Shown here: one piece after another, positions 37,667 through 55,391 of the stretch
How the letters are laid out: every line of letters starts with the position of its first letter
Position numbering within the stretch: the stretch's first letter is position 1
Origin: Andreprevotia sp. IGB-42
GTDB lineage: Bacteria > Pseudomonadota > Gammaproteobacteria > Burkholderiales > Chitinibacteraceae
Length of the DNA stretch: 64,000 nucleotides
Direction of reading: 5' to 3'
Assembly (NCBI RefSeq): GCF_009848685.1
Contig: NZ_WXTX01000005.1
Coordinates: 248,001-312,000, forward strand
Position numbers and translations under genes: made by a program
Notes under the pieces: model-generated
Databases searched by the model: none
What the model was told of the DNA's origin: nothing
Seen by the model: the letters and a program-made list of their open reading frames with translations, nothing else

Positions 37667-39277
37667 TCAGCGGCTGTAATCCGCAACCATGTAGGCCATT
37701 TCATCCGCGGTAAATTCGGCACGTACGTTCCAGCCGGATATGCGTGTCAGCGTATCGAAGAACAGGTTGAAACGCCCCCGGTTGGTGGTGGGCACGCTGC
37801 CGGCTGGTAGTGCCTGGATCTCGCGGAAGGTCTGTTTGAAGGCATTCCAGCCGCCCAGTTTGTCCTTGATGCTGACCAGCCGGGCAACAATGGTGTCGCC
37901 GTTCACGTCGCAAACGGCGTCGCCATTGCTGTCAGTACAGCGCGTATACAGCCAGTTTTTCATCTGTTCGCCACCTCGCAATGGCAGATTGCCATCGGGA
38001 TAGACCAGCGCATCGGTGTCTTCCAGTACCTTCTGCATCTTGAAGTTGGCCATGATTTCAGCACTGCTGCTGCCCCATACCCAGCGGTAATCCAGATCGA
38101 AGTTGTGGCCGATTTCATGCAGAATGCCGAAACTCCATTCCCCTGTAGTAAGGATATGATTCAATTCCTTGGCGATATACTGATCCTGCCACAGAATAGG
38201 GTTACCGGACACGGCCCAGCCCCCCGGATATTGTTTCACGCTCTGGATATAAGAGCGTGCACCATTGAATGGCTTGCTGCCCACCAGATCGGTATAGATG
38301 TCATATGCGCTATCGAGCTGGGTCATCCATTGCTGCCAATGGGCGGCATCGATGGCTGCATATTCGCTGGCCTGCAGATTGAAAGTGAAATACCTGGGGC
38401 TGCTGCGGCTGGTATAAGCCCCCTCCTGAATGGCAATGGCACTGAACCAGGCCTTGCCTATGCTGTCACTTGAGTAATTGCCGAGGCGCACGGTCAGTGT
38501 TTCCTCGCTACTCCTGGCAAAAAAGGTGGCTTCAAACCGGCTCCAGTCAAATGTGCCCGTTTGATTGGCAATCTGCTGGTCGCCCAGTACCAGATTGGCG
38601 CCTGTCGTGCCGGGGGACATCGGTATGATGTTTTCGCCCTTCATCCAGCCGGATACAATATATGCCTTGCCGGGAATCAACCCCGTGATCGTCTGGCTGA
38701 GAAGGGAATCATTGCTGTTGTTGCCATGATCAATGACCAGCGCATTGGTATTGCCCGCACCTTGCCCTGTGGAAATCTGTATTTCAGAGGGGCGTGGTTG
38801 CCATTGCTGCATTTCCCAGCCGGAAAGCCCTTGCCCAAAATTCGCATTCTTCAGTACCAGTGGGCCATTGACTGCATCTACACGGCTGACATTGAAATTG
38901 CCGGGTAATTCGTTATTGCCTGCCGGTATGCCGCTGATGCCGAAAAAGCCGGTTGCACCTGGCGCAATATCACCATTCCAGCCGTTGTTGATGACGGTGT
39001 GCTGATCTGCATTCTGCGCACTGATCTTGGCATCCCAGCCATTGGTGAGCTGTGCATTCCAGTTGAAAGTAACCATCCAGTTTTTGAGCGTTGTGGTGCC
39101 GGTATTTCTGATCAGCACCACGCCATTGAAGCCCGAGCCCCAATTGTGGGTTTCCTGATAGGCAACCTCAAAAGATGTGCTGGCCGCAGATACTGTAATC
39201 GGCAGAGTCAGAGCGGTACTGGCGAGCAAACAGGGCAGCGCATATCTAATTGCTGCAGGATTCAACAGACGATTCAT
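37667..39277 (-). CDS. Secreted CBM2-containing M60-like zinc metallopeptidase
   Basis: A 536-residue exported protein. After the signal peptide (to about Ala32) comes a CBM2-type polysaccharide-binding module (34-116) with the WGSGFNG and NWNAQLTNGWDA patches, then a jelly-roll carbohydrate-binding-like domain (about 140-288), then a metallopeptidase resembling the M60/enhancin group with HEIGH at 387-391 and a candidate third ligand Glu407 in SAEIMANF. M60-like enzymes cut glycoproteins such as mucins. The CBM suggests action on protein-coated polysaccharide. The M60 label rests on HExxH-x15-E geometry and gives moderate certainty. Confidence 0.72.
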   Translation of the reverse strand: MNRLLNPAAIRYALPCLLASTALTLPITVSAASTSFEVAYQETHNWGSGFNGVVLIRNTGTTTLKNWMVTFNWNAQLTNGWDAKISAQNADQHTVINNGWNGDIAPGATGFFGISGIPAGNNELPGNFNVSRVDAVNGPLVLKNANFGQGLSGWEMQQWQPRPSEIQISTGQGAGNTNALVIDHGNNSNDSLLSQTITGLIPGKAYIVSGWMKGENIIPMSPGTTGANLVLGDQQIANQTGTFDWSRFEATFFARSSEETLTVRLGNYSSDSIGKAWFSAIAIQEGAYTSRSSPRYFTFNLQASEYAAIDAAHWQQWMTQLDSAYDIYTDLVGSKPFNGARSYIQSVKQYPGGWAVSGNPILWQDQYIAKELNHILTTGEWSFGILHEIGHNFDLDYRWVWGSSSAEIMANFKMQKVLEDTDALVYPDGNLPLRGGEQMKNWLYTRCTDSNGDAVCDVNGDTIVARLVSIKDKLGGWNAFKQTFREIQALPAGSVPTTNRGRFNLFFDTLTRISGWNVRAEFTADEMAYMVADYSR

Positions 39278-39467: not shown

Positions 39468-40718
39468 TTACTGGAAAAACGCCGGGCAGGTGCTGGGCAG
39501 CGCGGCGGTGGGGATGGCCTCGCAGGTATTGCGGAACGTCAGCTCGCCGTCCTTGCTGGTGGATAGCGCCCACACGGTGTCGTAATCCTCGAAGCTCCAC
39601 GCCGGTAGCTGCTTCGCAGCCTCCGGATTGCGGTACATCGTTTCCAGCAGGTATTGCACCGCCTTCTGGATATGCGCGTGTTCCCAGCCCACCAGGATGC
39701 TGGCGCCGCTATCCGGGTGTTTGAAATAAGGCGATTCGCGGTTGAACAGCGATTGCGCCAGGTCGGTTGCGTCCGACCACTGGAATGTCGCCAGCGTGAG
39801 CGGCAGCTTGTGCTGGACGGCAAACGGCGACACCGTCAGCGATGGGCGGATGTAGGAGCAGGTGCCGCTGCAGCCGATGATGTTGGATGGGTCGGATGTG
39901 AACACGTAATCCGGCTTGCGGTTGCGCATGATCTCCAGCAATCGGCCGTTGGCGCCCAGCGCACGCCATTGCCCCTGGCAGACGTAGTTGCCGTTCTCGA
40001 AATTGCCGGTGGGGTGGGCTTCCACATGGCGCACCAGATAAACCGTCTGTTCGGTATACGGGCGCCAGCCACCCGGTGCCTTGGCGCGTATCGTTACCGG
40101 GCTTTGCGGGCAGGCGCTGCGCGCCGGCAGCGGCACTACCGGGTAGTCGGCCACGTCCTTGATCTGGTCATCGTAGCTGCTGGTGGCAAACGGCTGATCG
40201 CGGCCGGACAACACCACGTACTGGTGGGTGCCATCGATACTGATCGAGCCATTGCCCAGCGCACCGGCCACCTGCTGCAGCATGGCCGGCGGCATTGCCA
40301 TGATGTAGGTGCCGCGTGGCTGGTTGCCCAACAATTGCTGCATGAAATAGGCGGGCGAGTTGTAGACCGATGCGTCGCCCACACTCAGCTTCTGCACGCT
40401 CACCCCCAAGTTGTTGAGCAGCGCATACGGTTCGATGGTCTGTAGCGGCACCATGCTGTCGTCGTTGGTATAGCTGAATGCATACACCTGGCGCACTTGG
40501 CCCTGCTTGCCGGCCAGCATGCTGTTGAGCAACTGGCCGAAACGCAGTGCATGGTTCAGCCCGCTAACCGAGAGCGTGTTGCCCTTTCCGGTCTGGCTGT
40601 CGAACGACGGCACCAGCACGAAATTCCAGTCATTGGGGTTGAGGGCGGGCTGGCCTGCCAGCGCGAGGCGGCTGCAGCACAACGCGCACAGCAGCAGAAG
40701 CAAGAAACGAAAAGGCAT
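39468..40718 (-). CDS. Exported histidine-phosphatase-like protein, apparently duplicated fold
   Basis: A 416-residue exported protein. The C-terminal half has VYLVRHVEAHP (Arg230-His231), matching the RHG motif of histidine phosphatases except for Val in place of Gly, and a second His in VGWEHAHIQKAV. The N-terminal half repeats the pattern FVLVPS...LSVSGLNHALRFGQLL but lacks the RH pair, so it looks like a degenerate copy. Phosphatase activity is possible in the second half only. The start at 40718 gives a clean signal peptide (PFRFLLLLLCALCCSRLALA). Genes on either side are unrelated. Confidence 0.68.
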   Translation of the reverse strand: MPFRFLLLLLCALCCSRLALAGQPALNPNDWNFVLVPSFDSQTGKGNTLSVSGLNHALRFGQLLNSMLAGKQGQVRQVYAFSYTNDDSMVPLQTIEPYALLNNLGVSVQKLSVGDASVYNSPAYFMQQLLGNQPRGTYIMAMPPAMLQQVAGALGNGSISIDGTHQYVVLSGRDQPFATSSYDDQIKDVADYPVVPLPARSACPQSPVTIRAKAPGGWRPYTEQTVYLVRHVEAHPTGNFENGNYVCQGQWRALGANGRLLEIMRNRKPDYVFTSDPSNIIGCSGTCSYIRPSLTVSPFAVQHKLPLTLATFQWSDATDLAQSLFNRESPYFKHPDSGASILVGWEHAHIQKAVQYLLETMYRNPEAAKQLPAWSFEDYDTVWALSTSKDGELTFRNTCEAIPTAALPSTCPAFFQ

Positions 40719-40815: not shown

Positions 40816-43800
40816 TTACGGCGTGAAATACTGGCGCCGCTGGTGCTGATCCTGATGCATCGGAAACATGGCCACGTAGAACTCGGTCCAGCCGCCCATG
40901 CGCACACGCACCAGGTTGAAGCGTTCCGGGTCTTGCGTTGCAGCCTGGTAGGTGGCGAGATCGGCGCAGGTCAGCGTGATCAGGTTGGAGCCGGTTTCAC
41001 CGCGCGCATACGCCTTCACGAAGCGCTGCAGGTCGTCCAGCGGAAAGCCCTCGGCAATGTTCATGTCCACTGGCGATGCATTGGATAAACCGTATTCGAT
41101 GGCATCCACGCGATAGCTCTCCAGCGACTGGTAGATGTTGCGGAATGCCGGTGCGGCCGGCAGATCCTGCGGTGCCGGTACGGGAGACAGGTCGGATGCA
41201 ATCGGCATGCTGTTGCGGCGGCCATCGGCGGACGCACCGCACGGCAAACCATCGCCCACGTAGCCTTCGAAGGTGCCGATGCCCGGCGTCACCACGAACT
41301 CGAACTGGCCGTAAGTGCTGGCAATGCCGTCCAGCACCGGCTTGAGCGCCGGGCTGGGTGTGCGCACGGTATCGACGCACAGCGCCACCAGCTTTTCCAT
41401 CAGCCATTCGCCCAGCGCGTTCACTTCCGCGTTGCCGCTGCCCCACTTGGGCAGAGCCAGTGCGGTGGCGCGCCATTCCTGGTAGCGGCGGCCGCGCTCG
41501 GCGGCATCGGCCGGCCCCATCAGCGTGTTCTGGTAGGGCTCGATCATCGTGTAGCCCCAGTCGTTGATCAGACAATCGAGCAACTCGGGCAGCGTGGTGA
41601 TGGCGGTGGCCGGATCGAACACCAGCTTCTTGATGGCAAACAGCGAATCGATGGTGTTGGATACGCCCACGCACAGCGGGGCAATCATGTGGAAACGCGC
41701 GCCGGCATTGGTCAGGTCGCGGCCGGATTCCACGCAACCATCGATCAGGTTGGACAGCAGCGGGCTGGGGCAGATGCCTCCCAGGTTGCCATACGCACCC
41801 AGGATCACGTTGTAGCTCTGGATCACCAGCCATTCCAGCTGCTTGAGGAAGATCTCCTGCAACTGCTCGAAGCTGGTGATTTCCTCCACCGGCGGCGAGC
41901 GGAACGTCTGCTTCAACCCGCGCAGGTAGACCGGGCCGGCCGAGCCATAGGTGGCGCCCTGATTCAGCGCCTGTTCCAGTGCCGTCATCGGCGTGACGTT
42001 GTTGAATGCAAATTCGGTGGCGCCGGCCAGCATCGGCTCGTAGCAGCCATCCGCCGCATAATCGCGCGACCACGCCAGCGATACCTCGCTACCCGATCGG
42101 TGCAGCGCTTCGCATAGCCGGTCATCGTTGTACATGATGGGGTGTGCGCCGCCGGCCAGCAGCGTGCGTGCTGCTTCGTCGAGGATTTCTTCCGGCATGT
42201 CCTTGTACACGCGCAGCGATAGCGTGGGCGCGTTGACCGGGATGCGCCGCGCTGCCTTCAGGCACAGCAGCGTGATCGGGTTGGCGCCGCCTTGCGGCTC
42301 CGGGCTGTTGTTGGGCAGGTAGCCGCCCACGGTGATCTGCTGCACCCACTGGTTGATGCCGCCGCCCTGCGGGAAATTGCCGCCCAGCCCGCAGACTGCG
42401 GTTGTGCCGTAATTGACGTAATCGGTAATGTTGGCGCGGTTGACGAAGGCGTTCTCGCCGATCTTCAGCCACAGGCAATCGACGATCTCCTGTGCGCGGG
42501 TTTCGTCCAGCGGCGCCTGCTCCAGCAACGGCCACAGGATCTGATCCAGCCGGCCCAGCGATGTCAGTTCGCCCACCAGATGCAGGCAGCAATGGAATGA
42601 ATAGATGAGCTGCACGCCATCCTGGAAGCTGGCGGGTTTCTCCGTCACCAGCCGCCGCAGCCGCGCGGCCACGTCGCGCATATTGTCGGCATCCGCATCC
42701 CGGGCGGTCAGCGCTGCGGTATCGGCCAGCGTGGCCCAGTTGCGCAGGTAGCCCTGTACGCCTTCCAGCGACCAGATCGCCGACTGGTAGAAATCGGCCT
42801 GCGCGCTGCCCACGCCGGCGGTTGCCAGTTTGTCGTGCAGCGTGCCCAGCAATCCGCCCAGGCCCTGCTGCACCAGCATGCCGTAATGCGGCACCACGTG
42901 GCCCATGGCAGACCATTCGTTCAGCTCGCCTTTGAGCCATGCGGCAACGGTTTCGTCCTCGCTCAGGTAGGGCACTACTTCCTTGCCACGGCCCAGCGTG
43001 AAGTCGGGGATCACGCCAACGATCAGCTCTTCCGGGTAGATGCGCAGCAGCTCGTTTTGGCGTGCGATATGCGAATCGGGTGCGGACAGCAGCGTATCCA
43101 AGGTCTTTTTGTTGGCCATGCCCTTGCGCAGCGGCACTGATCCGCCCAGCGCGCTCTTTTCATCGTCGTGTACCAGCTCGGCCAGTTGCGGCAGGCGCGG
43201 GAACGGCTTGCGGTCCAGCCAGCCATCGTTCCAGTGCGAGAATACGCGCCCCAGCAAGGACAGCAGGCGCGGGCCGGGCGGATCGCCAGCGGCGTAGCGG
43301 CCTTCCGCCATCTGGTGCAGGTAATCCTGCGTGTTGTAGAACATGTAGCCGTTGGGGCTGCGGATGCGCCAGTGCGCGTCCTCGGTGGTTTCCGTCACAC
43401 AGGTAACGGCGGGCACGGCCAGCTCGCTGGCCGCCGGCACATACCAGTACGCACCGGCAATGCCCTGTACCACGCTCATCATGCGGTCTGCCGGGCGATC
43501 CGGCATTGCGCCCATCAGGTGGTTCAGCACGGTTTCAAAGCGTTCCTGCTCGTTGCAGAACGCCACGAACATCAAGCCGGCCTCGCGCGCGGCGCTGCTG
43601 GCATGCTCGCCAAACGGCAATGCCTGGCGCAGCAGCTTGCGGTTGTCGCCATTGGCATCCAGCACATGCGCACGGTGGATGTGCGCGTTGACGTCGTTCT
43701 GCGGCAGGATGGCACCAGCGGGATCGCGCCCCAGCATCGCGTCTTCGGTATCCGGTGCCATCGCACCCAGGCTGGCCCAGTCGAACAGGAATTTCTGGGT

Positions 43801-44319
43801 AAAGCCGAATGCCGCGCCACGGTATTCGCCATCGACCAGGATGTCTTCGGCCATGGTGACCGGGTCGTTGGGGTTGGTGATGCCGTCCAGGTAGCGGCCG
43901 CCGATCACTCGGCCGTCCGGGCGTTTGCCCACCGGCAGGATTTCCAGTTGTGCGGCCAGGCCTTCCAGTGCGGCGCGTACACCATCTACCAGAGTGGCAG
44001 CAGTCGCGGCGTCGGGCGCTTTCAGGTACAGCAATACATCGCCACCGCTATCGCGCAATTTGGGCGAGCGATCGAGCACGGTACGGATCACCGCGATATG
44101 CCGGTCGTTCCAGCGCCCCCACAGTTCCGGCGAAAACGCCGCGACCAGTCCACAGGCAGGCGCAGTGGCTTCGGCTGCACAGGCCAGTTGCTGCACCAAA
44201 GCCAGGATGGCACTGCGGGTTTCCAGATCGTGGTTGCGCAGGGTGAGCGTGACTACCTGGCCAAAGATGGCTGGAACAAGCAACCCGCGTTGGGCGCCCT
44301 GAAGAATCTCGGCGTACAT
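40816..44319 (-). CDS. DyP-type peroxidase fused to a glycyl radical enzyme
   Basis: One uninterrupted 1167-residue ORF with two enzymes. Residues 1-310 form a DyP-type haem peroxidase of the YfeX kind: FSPELWGR, SGGDVLLYLK, RYLDGITNP (distal Asp145), NAHIHRAH (proximal His213) and LLRQALPFGE (Arg231), all in place. Residues about 320-1167 form a PFL-like glycyl radical enzyme: NLIDGCVESG puts the thiyl Cys at 862 with the Glu864 of eliminase-type members, and RMGGWTEFYV gives the radical Gly1143. No radical-SAM activase gene is in the window. The substrate is unknown. The start follows CAGGAG. The fusion of a haem peroxidase to an oxygen-sensitive radical enzyme is unusual. Confidence 0.85.
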   Translation of the reverse strand: MYAEILQGAQRGLLVPAIFGQVVTLTLRNHDLETRSAILALVQQLACAAEATAPACGLVAAFSPELWGRWNDRHIAVIRTVLDRSPKLRDSGGDVLLYLKAPDAATAATLVDGVRAALEGLAAQLEILPVGKRPDGRVIGGRYLDGITNPNDPVTMAEDILVDGEYRGAAFGFTQKFLFDWASLGAMAPDTEDAMLGRDPAGAILPQNDVNAHIHRAHVLDANGDNRKLLRQALPFGEHASSAAREAGLMFVAFCNEQERFETVLNHLMGAMPDRPADRMMSVVQGIAGAYWYVPAASELAVPAVTCVTETTEDAHWRIRSPNGYMFYNTQDYLHQMAEGRYAAGDPPGPRLLSLLGRVFSHWNDGWLDRKPFPRLPQLAELVHDDEKSALGGSVPLRKGMANKKTLDTLLSAPDSHIARQNELLRIYPEELIVGVIPDFTLGRGKEVVPYLSEDETVAAWLKGELNEWSAMGHVVPHYGMLVQQGLGGLLGTLHDKLATAGVGSAQADFYQSAIWSLEGVQGYLRNWATLADTAALTARDADADNMRDVAARLRRLVTEKPASFQDGVQLIYSFHCCLHLVGELTSLGRLDQILWPLLEQAPLDETRAQEIVDCLWLKIGENAFVNRANITDYVNYGTTAVCGLGGNFPQGGGINQWVQQITVGGYLPNNSPEPQGGANPITLLCLKAARRIPVNAPTLSLRVYKDMPEEILDEAARTLLAGGAHPIMYNDDRLCEALHRSGSEVSLAWSRDYAADGCYEPMLAGATEFAFNNVTPMTALEQALNQGATYGSAGPVYLRGLKQTFRSPPVEEITSFEQLQEIFLKQLEWLVIQSYNVILGAYGNLGGICPSPLLSNLIDGCVESGRDLTNAGARFHMIAPLCVGVSNTIDSLFAIKKLVFDPATAITTLPELLDCLINDWGYTMIEPYQNTLMGPADAAERGRRYQEWRATALALPKWGSGNAEVNALGEWLMEKLVALCVDTVRTPSPALKPVLDGIASTYGQFEFVVTPGIGTFEGYVGDGLPCGASADGRRNSMPIASDLSPVPAPQDLPAAPAFRNIYQSLESYRVDAIEYGLSNASPVDMNIAEGFPLDDLQRFVKAYARGETGSNLITLTCADLATYQAATQDPERFNLVRVRMGGWTEFYVAMFPMHQDQHQRRQYFTP

Positions 44320-44781
44320 GACTACTCCTGAAGGAATTTAGGTGCGTGCATTCATGTGCTTGGCCGCCACGCCGCCAATAGGGATCGGCACGGCCGAAGC
44401 AGTGTGCGTTATATGTAAGTAATTGGTGATTGTATTGCAAGAAATGACATGAAGATATTGTGCGGCAGGCTGACAGGTGTTCTGTGTTGCTGATCACCCG
44501 CTGGCAAAGGCAACGAATGCGAAAGGTGGTGCTGTCAGTTTTTGGAGCGGAAGCGACGGATGTACCTGCATTGGCCATGTAACCCGCTGTATGGCCGCCC
44601 AATGGCTGACCTATAAAATGCAACAGGCATGCAATCGCTTTCCATGAATATGCTGTATAAATATTAAATGAGTAAGGTTGGTGTGAATTTTCTTTCTGTT
44701 TCGGTATGCCCGATACGAAAACTGACGATTTGCGCCACGCCTGCCGCTTGCATCAAGATCAGAAATCATCGGGGATGACGT
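44320..44781. other. Divergent intergenic region
   Basis: About 460 bases between the divergent DyP-GRE gene and the putative toxin gene, more AT-rich than its surroundings. It must hold both promoters. I see no ORF with a ribosome site and no clear sigma54 or Fnr site. Confidence 0.5.
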
Positions 44782-52049: not shown

Positions 52050-55000
52050 ATGAACTCTATCTGGATGCGTACTACGCAGGCGGGCGTATTTGCCAGCCTG
52101 ATCGTCAGTGTTGCCCATGCTGCGCCGGTATGGCGCGAAGGCGTGACCTATACCGCAGGCACTGTCGTCAGTTACCAGGGGCTGGATTACCAGGCGCTGG
52201 TGACCCACACCGCCTATGTCGGCGCCAACTGGACGCCCCCCAACACGCCTGTGCTGTGGCGTAGCGACGGCAGCAGCACCGGCACCTCGCCGGTACCCAC
52301 CCCGGTTGCACCGGCAACGCAGGTGCCCACCGTGGTGCCGCCCACGCTCGCGCCGCCGGTTGCTGGCTGCCATGCCGCGTGGAGCCCGGCCACCATCTAC
52401 ACCGCCGGCCAGCGTGTCACGCATGCCGGGATCAATTACGAAGCCAAGTGGTGGACACAGGGTGATGATCCGTCGCGCGCCGGGCAGTGGGGGCCATGGC
52501 GCGCCATCGGTGCTTGCGTCAGCGTTACTGCGACTCCCATCCCGACACCCACGTTGATTCCCACGCTGGTTCCGTCCCTGCTGCCTACGGTCACCCCGAC
52601 AGCATTGCCGACCGCGCAACCGACGCTATTGCCAACTGCAACGCCAACCGCGACTCCCACCGCAATCCCGACGCCAACCGTCACGCCAACCGTCACGCCG
52701 ACACCGACGGCCATACCGACCGTGGCACCAACCATCGCGCCAACGGCAACACCGACTGCCACCCCGCAGCCCACCCAGGCACCAGCGCTGGACCCGGCGC
52801 TCGCCAATGGCCTGGCGCATTACTATGCGCTGGACGGCCAGGGTATCGATGCAGTTGGCAATACCGCATTGCAGTCGGTCGGCGCAGTGGCCTATACCAC
52901 CGGTTACTTCGGCAATGGCAGCCAGCTCAATGCGTTGCAGGGCGCCGCGCATTTCCTGCCGCGTGATTTCACCGGCGCCTATACGCTGGCCTTCTGGGTG
53001 CACATGCTGGATGACATGGGCACCAAGCTGGCCAGCGTGGCGGCCAACAAGGATTGGGGCACCGGCAGCAATGCCGGTATCTCCATCGGCCGCAACAACG
53101 ATGGCCGCTACAAGTTCAACGTGGGCGATGGCAGCAAGCGCGTGGATGCCTATCTGGCCGGCCCCGCCAAGAGCTGGGGCTTCGTGGCGCTGGTGGTCAA
53201 TCCCGCTGCCAAAACCATCCAAGCCTATGCCACCGATGCCAACGGCACGCTCAATACCACCGCACTCAACTACAACGCACTGGGCAATATCTACCCCACT
53301 TACCAGCGCTGGGCATTCAACGAAGATGCACGTGGCGACTACTACGCACGCTACCCGGCCGAGCGCTTCACGCTGGAATACGACGATATCGCCGTATGGA
53401 GCCGTACGCTGGCAGCCAGCGAAATCGGCCAACTGGCCGCAGGCAAGGCACCGGTATCGAGCCTGAATCCGCAGCCGCTGCCCACCACGGTGCCGACACC
53501 GCTGCCTACTCCAAGTCCGGCCCTATCGCCGACGCCTTCGCCGGCACCAGATCAGCCCCCGGTCGGTACTGGCGCGCCCACGCTGACCATCGGCCCGGCA
53601 TTGCAGGCACCGGCTACCGATGGCGTGACCGTGCTGATGGAAACCGCACAATCCCGCCCGCAAGTGTGGGTGCGCCGCTACGGCAGCGCCGATGCGTTCA
53701 CACGGCAAAACGCCGCCGTCTACCCGACGGATGCCACCGTGTACCACGCAAGGCTGGGCGGCCTGCAGTCGAACACATTGTATGAATACTATGTGCGTAC
53801 CGAATCGGCCGATGGCGCCACGGCGTATGTCAGCCCGCGCTATGCGTTCAAGACTTGGCCCAAAGCGACTGATGGCGTGGAATCTGCCAAGTTCGTGGTG
53901 TTCAGCGATACGCAGGATGGCCGCGGTACCATCTTCAACGACATCGTTAACCAGGGGGTGATGAAGCACGATTGTGATGCCAGCCAGCCGGTCAGCTGCG
54001 CGCAGAACGTGGCGGGCATGCTGATCTCCGGCGACATGGTGGCATCGGGCAATTCGCGCGATCAGTGGCGCAGCCAGTTCTTCGGCCGCATGCAGGCATT
54101 GTCGCCATACGTGCCCATCATTGCCGCACCGGGCAACCACGAGTACTTCGGCGAGGAAATGGGCAACCCGGCTACGGTCAGCCAGCCCAATATCGCCAAT
54201 GCGATGAAGACCTATCGCAAGTACTTTGCCGGCGTGCCGGACAACGGTTCGGCCAGCTACCGTGGCTTCTGGTACAGCACCGATTTCCTCGGCCTGCGCC
54301 TGATCGTGCTCGATTCCACGCCGATTGCCGGCCGCCACACGCATGGCAACTGGACACCGCTTTCCATGTACTGGGACAGCTTCCGCGTGGAGCAACTGGG
54401 CTGGTTCAAGCAGCAGGTAGCCGGTGCGGAGGCAGCGGGCAAGCCGTTCGTGTTCAGCATCGACCACGCGCCATGCCTGTCGGAAAAATGGCGTAACGGC
54501 GAAGTGATTGCCGCGTGCGAATTCGTGGCAGAGCTGGAAGACTACAGCCACCGCACCAACGCCATCACCGGCAACCTGTTTGGCCATGTGCACAGCTACG
54601 GCCGCGGCCATTCGATGGATGTAAAACACCTGTGGCTGAACGCAGCCAGCGCCAGTGGTGCGCTGGAAGGCGGCGGTAACCAGGGCAGCGATGGCAAGGA
54701 TCTGGGCGTGTTCGTGATCACCCATGATGAATTCGGCTACAACACGCTGAACTTCACTTTCGGCGCCCAGCCGGCGGTGGCCATGCAGCGCCGTTCCAGC
54801 GGCGGTGCCGGCACCGACGTGAGCTTCCCGGTCAGCGACAGTATCAGCTTGGTAAGCGGTAACGTGGGTACGCCGCCGCAACTGGTGCAAACCGATCTGG
54901 GCAGTATCGTCATTGCCGGCCTCAACCTGGATTACCTGGCACCGGCCGGCGTGGATGTACTGGAAGCACACTGGCAACTGGCGCGCGCACCGGATTTTGC

Positions 55001-55391
55001 CGACGCTTTTGATGTGTGGGGCAACGAAACCCGCAAGGAAAACTGGTTCTATACCGGCACCAGCGGTACCTCGTTCACCAATACCCGCGCCGGCAAGCTG
55101 GTGACTCGCCTCGAACTTGGCAACCTGCTGGCCAGCCGCGAGCTGCTGCAGGATGGCGGCAACGAGGAGTTCGAGCGCTGGACGCTATCCAAGGGCGCCA
55201 CCTGCTGGACGACCAGTGGCGCGCGTGGCGGCCAGTGTACGCACCGCTCCAGCTACGACCGCTTCGGCGATGTGAAACCGGCAGCGTTCAAGGCGGTAAG
55301 TGGCGAGACCTGGTACTACCGCGTGCGGGTGCGTGATCAGGGCCTGAACTGGTCGCCGTTCAGCAATGCCGGCAGTTTCACCGTGCAATAA
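52050..55391 (+). CDS. Secreted chitin-binding metallophosphoesterase (two CBM5/12, LamG-like, PAP-like)
   Basis: An 1113-residue exported protein. Order: signal peptide; CBM5/12 (about 25-70); second CBM5/12 (108-152, YEAKWWTQGDD); long Thr/Pro linker (154-245); LamG/concanavalin-like domain (250-455); second linker; fibronectin-like domain (505-600); and a metallophosphoesterase resembling purple acid phosphatases with FVVFSDTQDG, MLISGDMV, APGNHEYF, SIDHAPC and GHVHSYGRGH as metal motifs. A C-terminal beta domain (about 900-1113) ends the protein. It should hydrolyse phosphoesters while bound to chitin. Start at 52050 after an ACGGA site; ATG at 52065 is possible. Confidence 0.85.
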   Translation: MNSIWMRTTQAGVFASLIVSVAHAAPVWREGVTYTAGTVVSYQGLDYQALVTHTAYVGANWTPPNTPVLWRSDGSSTGTSPVPTPVAPATQVPTVVPPTLAPPVAGCHAAWSPATIYTAGQRVTHAGINYEAKWWTQGDDPSRAGQWGPWRAIGACVSVTATPIPTPTLIPTLVPSLLPTVTPTALPTAQPTLLPTATPTATPTAIPTPTVTPTVTPTPTAIPTVAPTIAPTATPTATPQPTQAPALDPALANGLAHYYALDGQGIDAVGNTALQSVGAVAYTTGYFGNGSQLNALQGAAHFLPRDFTGAYTLAFWVHMLDDMGTKLASVAANKDWGTGSNAGISIGRNNDGRYKFNVGDGSKRVDAYLAGPAKSWGFVALVVNPAAKTIQAYATDANGTLNTTALNYNALGNIYPTYQRWAFNEDARGDYYARYPAERFTLEYDDIAVWSRTLAASEIGQLAAGKAPVSSLNPQPLPTTVPTPLPTPSPALSPTPSPAPDQPPVGTGAPTLTIGPALQAPATDGVTVLMETAQSRPQVWVRRYGSADAFTRQNAAVYPTDATVYHARLGGLQSNTLYEYYVRTESADGATAYVSPRYAFKTWPKATDGVESAKFVVFSDTQDGRGTIFNDIVNQGVMKHDCDASQPVSCAQNVAGMLISGDMVASGNSRDQWRSQFFGRMQALSPYVPIIAAPGNHEYFGEEMGNPATVSQPNIANAMKTYRKYFAGVPDNGSASYRGFWYSTDFLGLRLIVLDSTPIAGRHTHGNWTPLSMYWDSFRVEQLGWFKQQVAGAEAAGKPFVFSIDHAPCLSEKWRNGEVIAACEFVAELEDYSHRTNAITGNLFGHVHSYGRGHSMDVKHLWLNAASASGALEGGGNQGSDGKDLGVFVITHDEFGYNTLNFTFGAQPAVAMQRRSSGGAGTDVSFPVSDSISLVSGNVGTPPQLVQTDLGSIVIAGLNLDYLAPAGVDVLEAHWQLARAPDFADAFDVWGNETRKENWFYTGTSGTSFTNTRAGKLVTRLELGNLLASRELLQDGGNEEFERWTLSKGATCWTTSGARGGQCTHRSSYDRFGDVKPAAFKAVSGETWYYRVRVRDQGLNWSPFSNAGSFTVQ

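Follow-up and report, generated by a model that had tools for sequence, protein, structure and literature searches.

The fusion gene and its product

The gene considered here lies in a stretch of 64,000 nucleotides from Andreprevotia sp. IGB-42 (hereafter, the window) and joins, in a single open reading frame (ORF) that is uninterrupted over 1167 codons, an N-terminal DyP haem-peroxidase domain and a C-terminal domain with the fold of glycyl radical enzymes (GREs) (Table 1), as a preliminary description of this DNA had noted. Both parts are recognized by Pfam (Dyp_perox_C, residues 143–297, 67.1 bits against a cut-off of 20; PFL-like, residues 463–987, 324 bits against 24.3), and the AlphaFold2 model of the fusion (pLDDT 82.5, pTM 0.85) matches DyPs over about residues 7–302 and GREs over residues 341–1167, that is, over a full-length GRE fold. 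The halves are separated by neither a stop nor a frameshift, and the sister species Andreprevotia lacus (L050/G002) encodes a protein of equal length, 87% identical, whose gene is preceded by GGAGT, similar by eye to the AGGAGT of the window. The dN/dS ratio between the two genes is 0.134 overall (0.15 for the DyP part, 0.115 for the GRE part and 0.43 for the linker). Because of this homologue and this ratio, the fusion is a real protein, neither an assembly artefact nor the product of a decaying gene; a chimera, a frameshift or a chance joining is ruled out by the same-length homologue and purifying selection.

Table 1. Positions of features at the fusion locus, numbered within the window
Feature	Position	Strand	Basis or remark
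DyP-GRE fusion gene	40816..44319	-	1167 amino acids plus stop; ORF, Pfam, AlphaFold2 model, structural match
DyP haem-peroxidase domain, residues 7–302	43414..44301	-	Pfam; structural match; conservation
Asp145 codon	43885-43887	-	DyP domain
His213 codon	43681-43683	-	DyP domain
Arg231 codon	43627-43629	-	DyP domain
Junction, residues 303–340	43300..43413	-	Contains conserved RSxNGxMxYN, residues 320–329
GRE-fold domain, residues 341–1167	40819..43299	-	Pfam, alignment to 1r8w, conservation, structural match
Cys759 codon	42043-42045	-	GRE-fold domain
Glu761 codon	42037-42039	-	GRE-fold domain
Gly1143 codon	40891-40893	-	GRE-fold domain
AGGAGT, ribosome-binding-like	44324..44329	-	5 bases upstream of ATG; by eye
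Downstream gene, predicted secreted	39468..40718	-	VRHVEAHP motif; histidine-phosphatase-like by eye

In the DyP half, Asp145, His213 and Arg231 fit the distal Asp, the proximal His and the Arg of DyPs, and the structural matches include KpDyP variants at D143 and R232, close to Asp145 and Arg231 of the window protein; haem binding and peroxidase activity of this half are predicted. In the GRE half, Gly1143, within RMGGW, fits the glycyl-radical position and is the putative site of the radical. Cys759, in the motif DGCYEP and followed by Glu761, aligns with the GCvEP cysteine of the glycerol dehydratase 1r8w, which identifies it as the catalytic Cys, whereas Cys862, in DGCVESG, aligns with another Cys that is also present in 1r8w. 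The claim of the preliminary description that both halves keep all catalytic residues thus stands for Asp145, His213, Arg231 and Gly1143, but its choice of Cys862 in GCVE as the active-site Cys has to be replaced by Cys759 in GCYE.

Conservation was assessed in 39 aligned fusions, namely the one in the window, 27 of the 31 loci from the pattern scan described below (four cut or split ones omitted), the copy on an Asticcacaulis plasmid and 10 new ones from scans of two families (those of G488 and G496). His213, His474 and Glu761 are invariant; Arg231, Cys759 and the RxGGW loop are each kept in 38 copies, and Tyr760 in 36 (Phe in the other three). Position 145 is occupied by Asp in 19 fusions, Glu in 19 and His in one. 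A single copy, from a metagenome-assembled genome (MAG; L064), has neither Cys759 nor the Gly loop.

Distribution, evolution and genomic neighbourhood

Two peptide patterns, one for the junction and one for the N-terminal part of the GRE half, were run in a single scan over a collection of 84,980 species and yielded at least 31 fusion loci, a lower bound, in Pseudomonadota, Myxococcota, Planctomycetota, Cyanobacteriota, Actinomycetota and Bacteroidota. Single full-length ORFs account for 27 of these loci, two are cut by contig ends (L069 and L079) and two are split (L078 from Saccharopolyspora spinosa and L080 from a MAG). These patterns favour fused copies; a profile of the GRE half, which is less biased in this respect, gave 19 positive genomes, all with fused-size frames except for the split S. 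spinosa gene. The 27 single-ORF loci and the profile matches together rule out that the homologues are always two separate genes, one of the two findings that the preliminary description had named as fatal to the fusion. Within groups, the occurrence of the fusion is sporadic: 2 of 100 relatives and 2 of 398 genomes of the phylum (the window genome being counted in both), and 2/151, 7/343 and 10/249 genomes in the families of G503, G488 and G496, respectively. Among 119 matching plasmid records, one covers at least 80% of the protein.

In a tree of the GRE half (29 fusions versus 20 other GREs) and in one of the DyP half (29 fusions versus 17 standalone DyPs), the fusions fall on one side of a branch with SH-aLRT support of 100, and the two trees recover largely the same fusion subgroups; both are quick trees that drew a long-branch warning from the tree tool. 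These topologies would best fit a single ancient fusion event, after which the joined gene spread intact.

The only unfused arrangement seen is on a Hymenobacter plasmid (L046:9785-14056), where the GRE is encoded by two abutting ORFs and an annotated DyP ORF follows 12 bases on; a further ORF after it resembles, by eye, a DyP C-terminus. The gene order is the reverse of that in the fusion, and the frames are apparently broken. Two Actinophytocola fusions (L065:6849-11564, 1571 amino acids; L066:6849-11546, 1565 amino acids) carry ∼300 additional N-terminal residues, which in L065 have no Pfam or NCBIfam match. Archangium violaceum (G489) has two fusion-size PF02901 frames, of 1219 and 1351 amino acids. 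A remnant of the GRE half (L024, G470:C14:121212-121760; residues 878–1055, 41% identical, two stops) is flanked by ORFs that by eye resemble glutamine synthetase and an OLD-type ATPase.

The predicted secreted gene downstream of the window fusion has homologues that adjoin the fusion in L050, L062 and L080; it shows no family or PDB match, and its structure model is poor (pLDDT 55). For genes within 2 kb of the fusions, 125 of 130 ORFs were scanned (five L074 ORFs were dropped as near-copies of L077, L068 was omitted as a near-copy of L073 and two L045 ORFs were swapped for annotated versions). The families listed (25 of 111 and 115 in two listings) include PF04185 phosphoesterase and DUF2608 (five each), 5'-nucleotidase and type I phosphodiesterase (two each, one of the latter a sulfatase), S1/P1 nuclease and DNase II (one each); among those listed for farther genes (107 of 227 scanned), there are two Metallophos and none of the other families just named, although single matches may stand lower in both lists. 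This phosphoesterase theme is suggestive only, because the five DUF2608 loci belong to one clade; it hints that the substrate might be an alcohol or amine freed from phosphoesters. The Hymenobacter locus has a PLD-like neighbour. In these five DUF2608 loci (L056 and L058–L061), the DUF2608 gene, with the motif MDDDDTLTMM (HAD-like by eye), directly adjoins the fusion in every case. Elsewhere in the window, positions 37667-39277, downstream of the fusion, encode a predicted secreted protein with CBM2, CBM4/9 and weak M60-peptidase domains, and positions 52050-55391 a 1113-amino acid protein with CBM5/12, LamG and calcineurin-like phosphoesterase domains.

Activases and possible sources of the radical

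Activases were sought in 34 fusion genomes, those of the window, of 23 pattern-scan loci and of the 10 new fusions (the eight omitted loci are all on MAG contigs), with TIGR02493 (PflA, cut-off 231.75) in all 34 and TIGR02494 in 24; genome completeness is known for one of the 34, and several matches lie on multi-megabase contigs. No PflA-type activase scores over the cut-off within the window, which agrees with the preliminary description, and the only PflA of this genome is on a different contig, beside a canonical PFL. PflA is over the cut-off in four of the 34 genomes (four of the first 24 and none of the 10 new ones; 283–307 bits), namely G000, Andreprevotia G485, Actinophytocola oryzae G497 and Chromobacterium G505, compared with a best score of 62 bits elsewhere. 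With TIGR02494, the same four are clearly ahead (best pieces 127–152 bits, the next 42), two of them passing its own cut-off. Exactly these four genomes encode a canonical PFL (690–725 bits), each within ∼1.1 kb of PflA, so that PflA tracks canonical PFL; in the other 30, the PFL search returned only fusion-size or split fusion frames. NrdD is over the cut-off in five of the 34. PFL and PflA over the cut-off are absent from 30 of the 34 genomes, and PFL, PflA and NrdD are all absent from 27, in which the fusion is the only GRE-type protein found. Near 34 distinct loci, the search for CxxxCxxC with a following GGE-type motif returned only one ORF (in L062), MoaA-like by eye.

Where the host has PflA, this activase could act on the fusion in trans, the copies in other hosts being inactive or degenerate as GREs. 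Four genomes have PflA, and in Chromobacterium pfl-pflA lies ∼5 kb from the fusion, but the residues are equally conserved in the 30 PflA-less hosts, which form whole clades, and this explanation is very improbable.

That the Gly loop is conserved speaks for radical chemistry; that most hosts have no recognizable activase speaks for a radical source of another kind, and a haem peroxidase, present in nearly every copy, is a candidate for that source. The best explanation, tentatively proposed, is that the fusion is a self-contained, eliminase-type GRE-fold enzyme in which the DyP domain supplies the oxidizing equivalent in place of a radical-SAM activase. Ferryl haem and protein radicals are known to arise in DyPs. 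By analogy with DyP chemistry, haem bound by His213 would react with peroxide, assisted by Asp/Glu145 and Arg231; the ferryl haem would oxidize aromatic residues, and the hole would move to Gly1143 and/or Cys759. As in GRE dehydratases and lyases, and judging from the residues and the fold, the Cys759 thiyl radical would then abstract hydrogen from a small substrate, with Glu761 aiding elimination, and the radical would go back to Cys or Gly. In favour of this explanation, Cys759, Glu761, RxGGW, His213 and Arg231 are kept although 30 of the 34 hosts lack PflA over the cut-off, and a fused DyP-PFL relative in the fungus Chaetomium cochliodes is induced 3-fold by H2O2 and 18.5-fold by peroxyacetic acid (PMC5041501). 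The wider proposition that, across the family, a haem peroxidase has fully replaced the radical-SAM activase, giving a peroxide- or oxygen-driven glycyl/thiyl enzyme of aerobes, is slightly more doubtful.

Several observations weigh against a peroxidase-supplied radical. The glycyl radical is oxygen-labile, and the Gly loop falls in a low-confidence region of the AlphaFold2 model. Asp is found at position 145 in only 19 of the 39 fusions, PflA does occur in four hosts, and in Chromobacterium alticapitis (L075/G505:C157) the fusion shares one contig with the nearby pfl-pflA pair; moreover, the hosts may encode a radical-SAM activase of an unrecognized type. Heaviest are three further points. 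In the copy from a MAG of Scalindua, a lineage that we take to be anaerobic, positions 145 and 231 are occupied by His and Gly, respectively, while the GRE residues and the proximal His are kept (L056:7890-11549), apparently a decayed peroxidase site. The GRE Gly fingerprint, given as RVxG[FWY] in a passage of PMC11528403, deviates to RMGGW in the window and R[MTQ]GGW in relatives, with Arg, Gly and the aromatic residue kept and Val replaced by Met, Thr or Gln; because of this replacement, the window protein is classed here only with a divergent GRE-fold clade. Finally, a putative PFL activase has been reported in Chaetomium (PMC5041501).

The preliminary description had suggested oxygen or peroxide protection, a shared substrate or radical quenching; protection stays a live rival, and the activase survey favours radical supply by the peroxidase at least equally. 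With built-in protection, an unrecognized radical-SAM protein would activate the GRE half, and the DyP would remove peroxide, or quench or shield the radical in air. The oxygen lability of GREs, the retention of the DyP residues and, in the fungal relative, both the peroxide induction and the putative activase speak for this arrangement, which we nevertheless consider unlikely. Alternatively, the enzyme could be bifunctional and store no glycyl radical, with the peroxidase and the barrel acting on linked substrates, the barrel by transient thiyl or non-radical chemistry, and the Gly loop kept as a structural element. This reading would account for the deviating fingerprint (RMGGW, RTGGW, RQGGW), the lack of a recognizable activase in most hosts, the scores of GRE subfamily models far under their cut-offs and the largely aerobic hosts (we take Pedobacter, Massilia, Collimonas and Saccharopolyspora to be aerobes); it is quite unlikely, given the full GRE fold and the presence of the Gly loop and Cys759 each in 38 of the 39 copies.

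The GRE glycyl radical is described, in a passage of PMC11528403, as being put in place by a dedicated radical-SAM partner and as stable under strict anoxia. A conserved, widespread GRE-fold protein that carries a haem peroxidase, usually without a recognizable activase, makes this picture of activase dependence testable. If true, radical supply by the peroxidase would bear on how radical barrels passed from an anaerobic to an aerobic mode of life, and it might give an oxygen-compatible GRE for chemistry.

Comparison with known systems

The DyP-PFL architecture is already known, and the fungal literature rules out that the fusion is new to science: Chaetomium cochliodes has a fused DyP(B)-PFL with an N-terminal DyP and a C-terminal PFL domain (PMC5041501), a passage of PMC8469222 mentions such a fused gene, g1956, in Xylaria grammica, and bacterial relatives were noted in that literature. 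By the published description, the fungal proteins have the same order of DyP and PFL-like domains as the window protein; they differ in their hosts and in the putative activase reported for Chaetomium. Among the titles and abstracts listed from the open literature searched, none dealt with the absence of an activase or with how the fusion works.

The DyPs YfeX (5gt2) and KpDyP are standalone proteins with ∼20% identity to the fusion DyP, and their Asp is Glu in 19 of the 39 fusions. From the GRE dehydratases and lyases (1r8w, 9rcp, 5i2g and CutC, 5fau), the fusions differ in forming their own clade, in GCYE, in the RxGGW loop, in the fused DyP and in the lack of a detected activase in most hosts. 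In the window protein, E584 stands at His281 of 1r8w, and Asp447 of 1r8w has no aligned counterpart, both being residues that presumably have roles in that enzyme.

An analogy may be drawn with class I ribonucleotide reductase, which would have in common with the fusion a thiyl barrel that draws its radical from an oxygen-dependent metal cofactor rather than from radical SAM; the fusion differs in having haem instead of a di-metal site, in carrying it on the same polypeptide, in keeping the Gly loop and in belonging to a different branch. The fusion would then be to PFL-type GREs as class I is to class III ribonucleotide reductase, a related barrel whose radical source belongs to the oxygen era.
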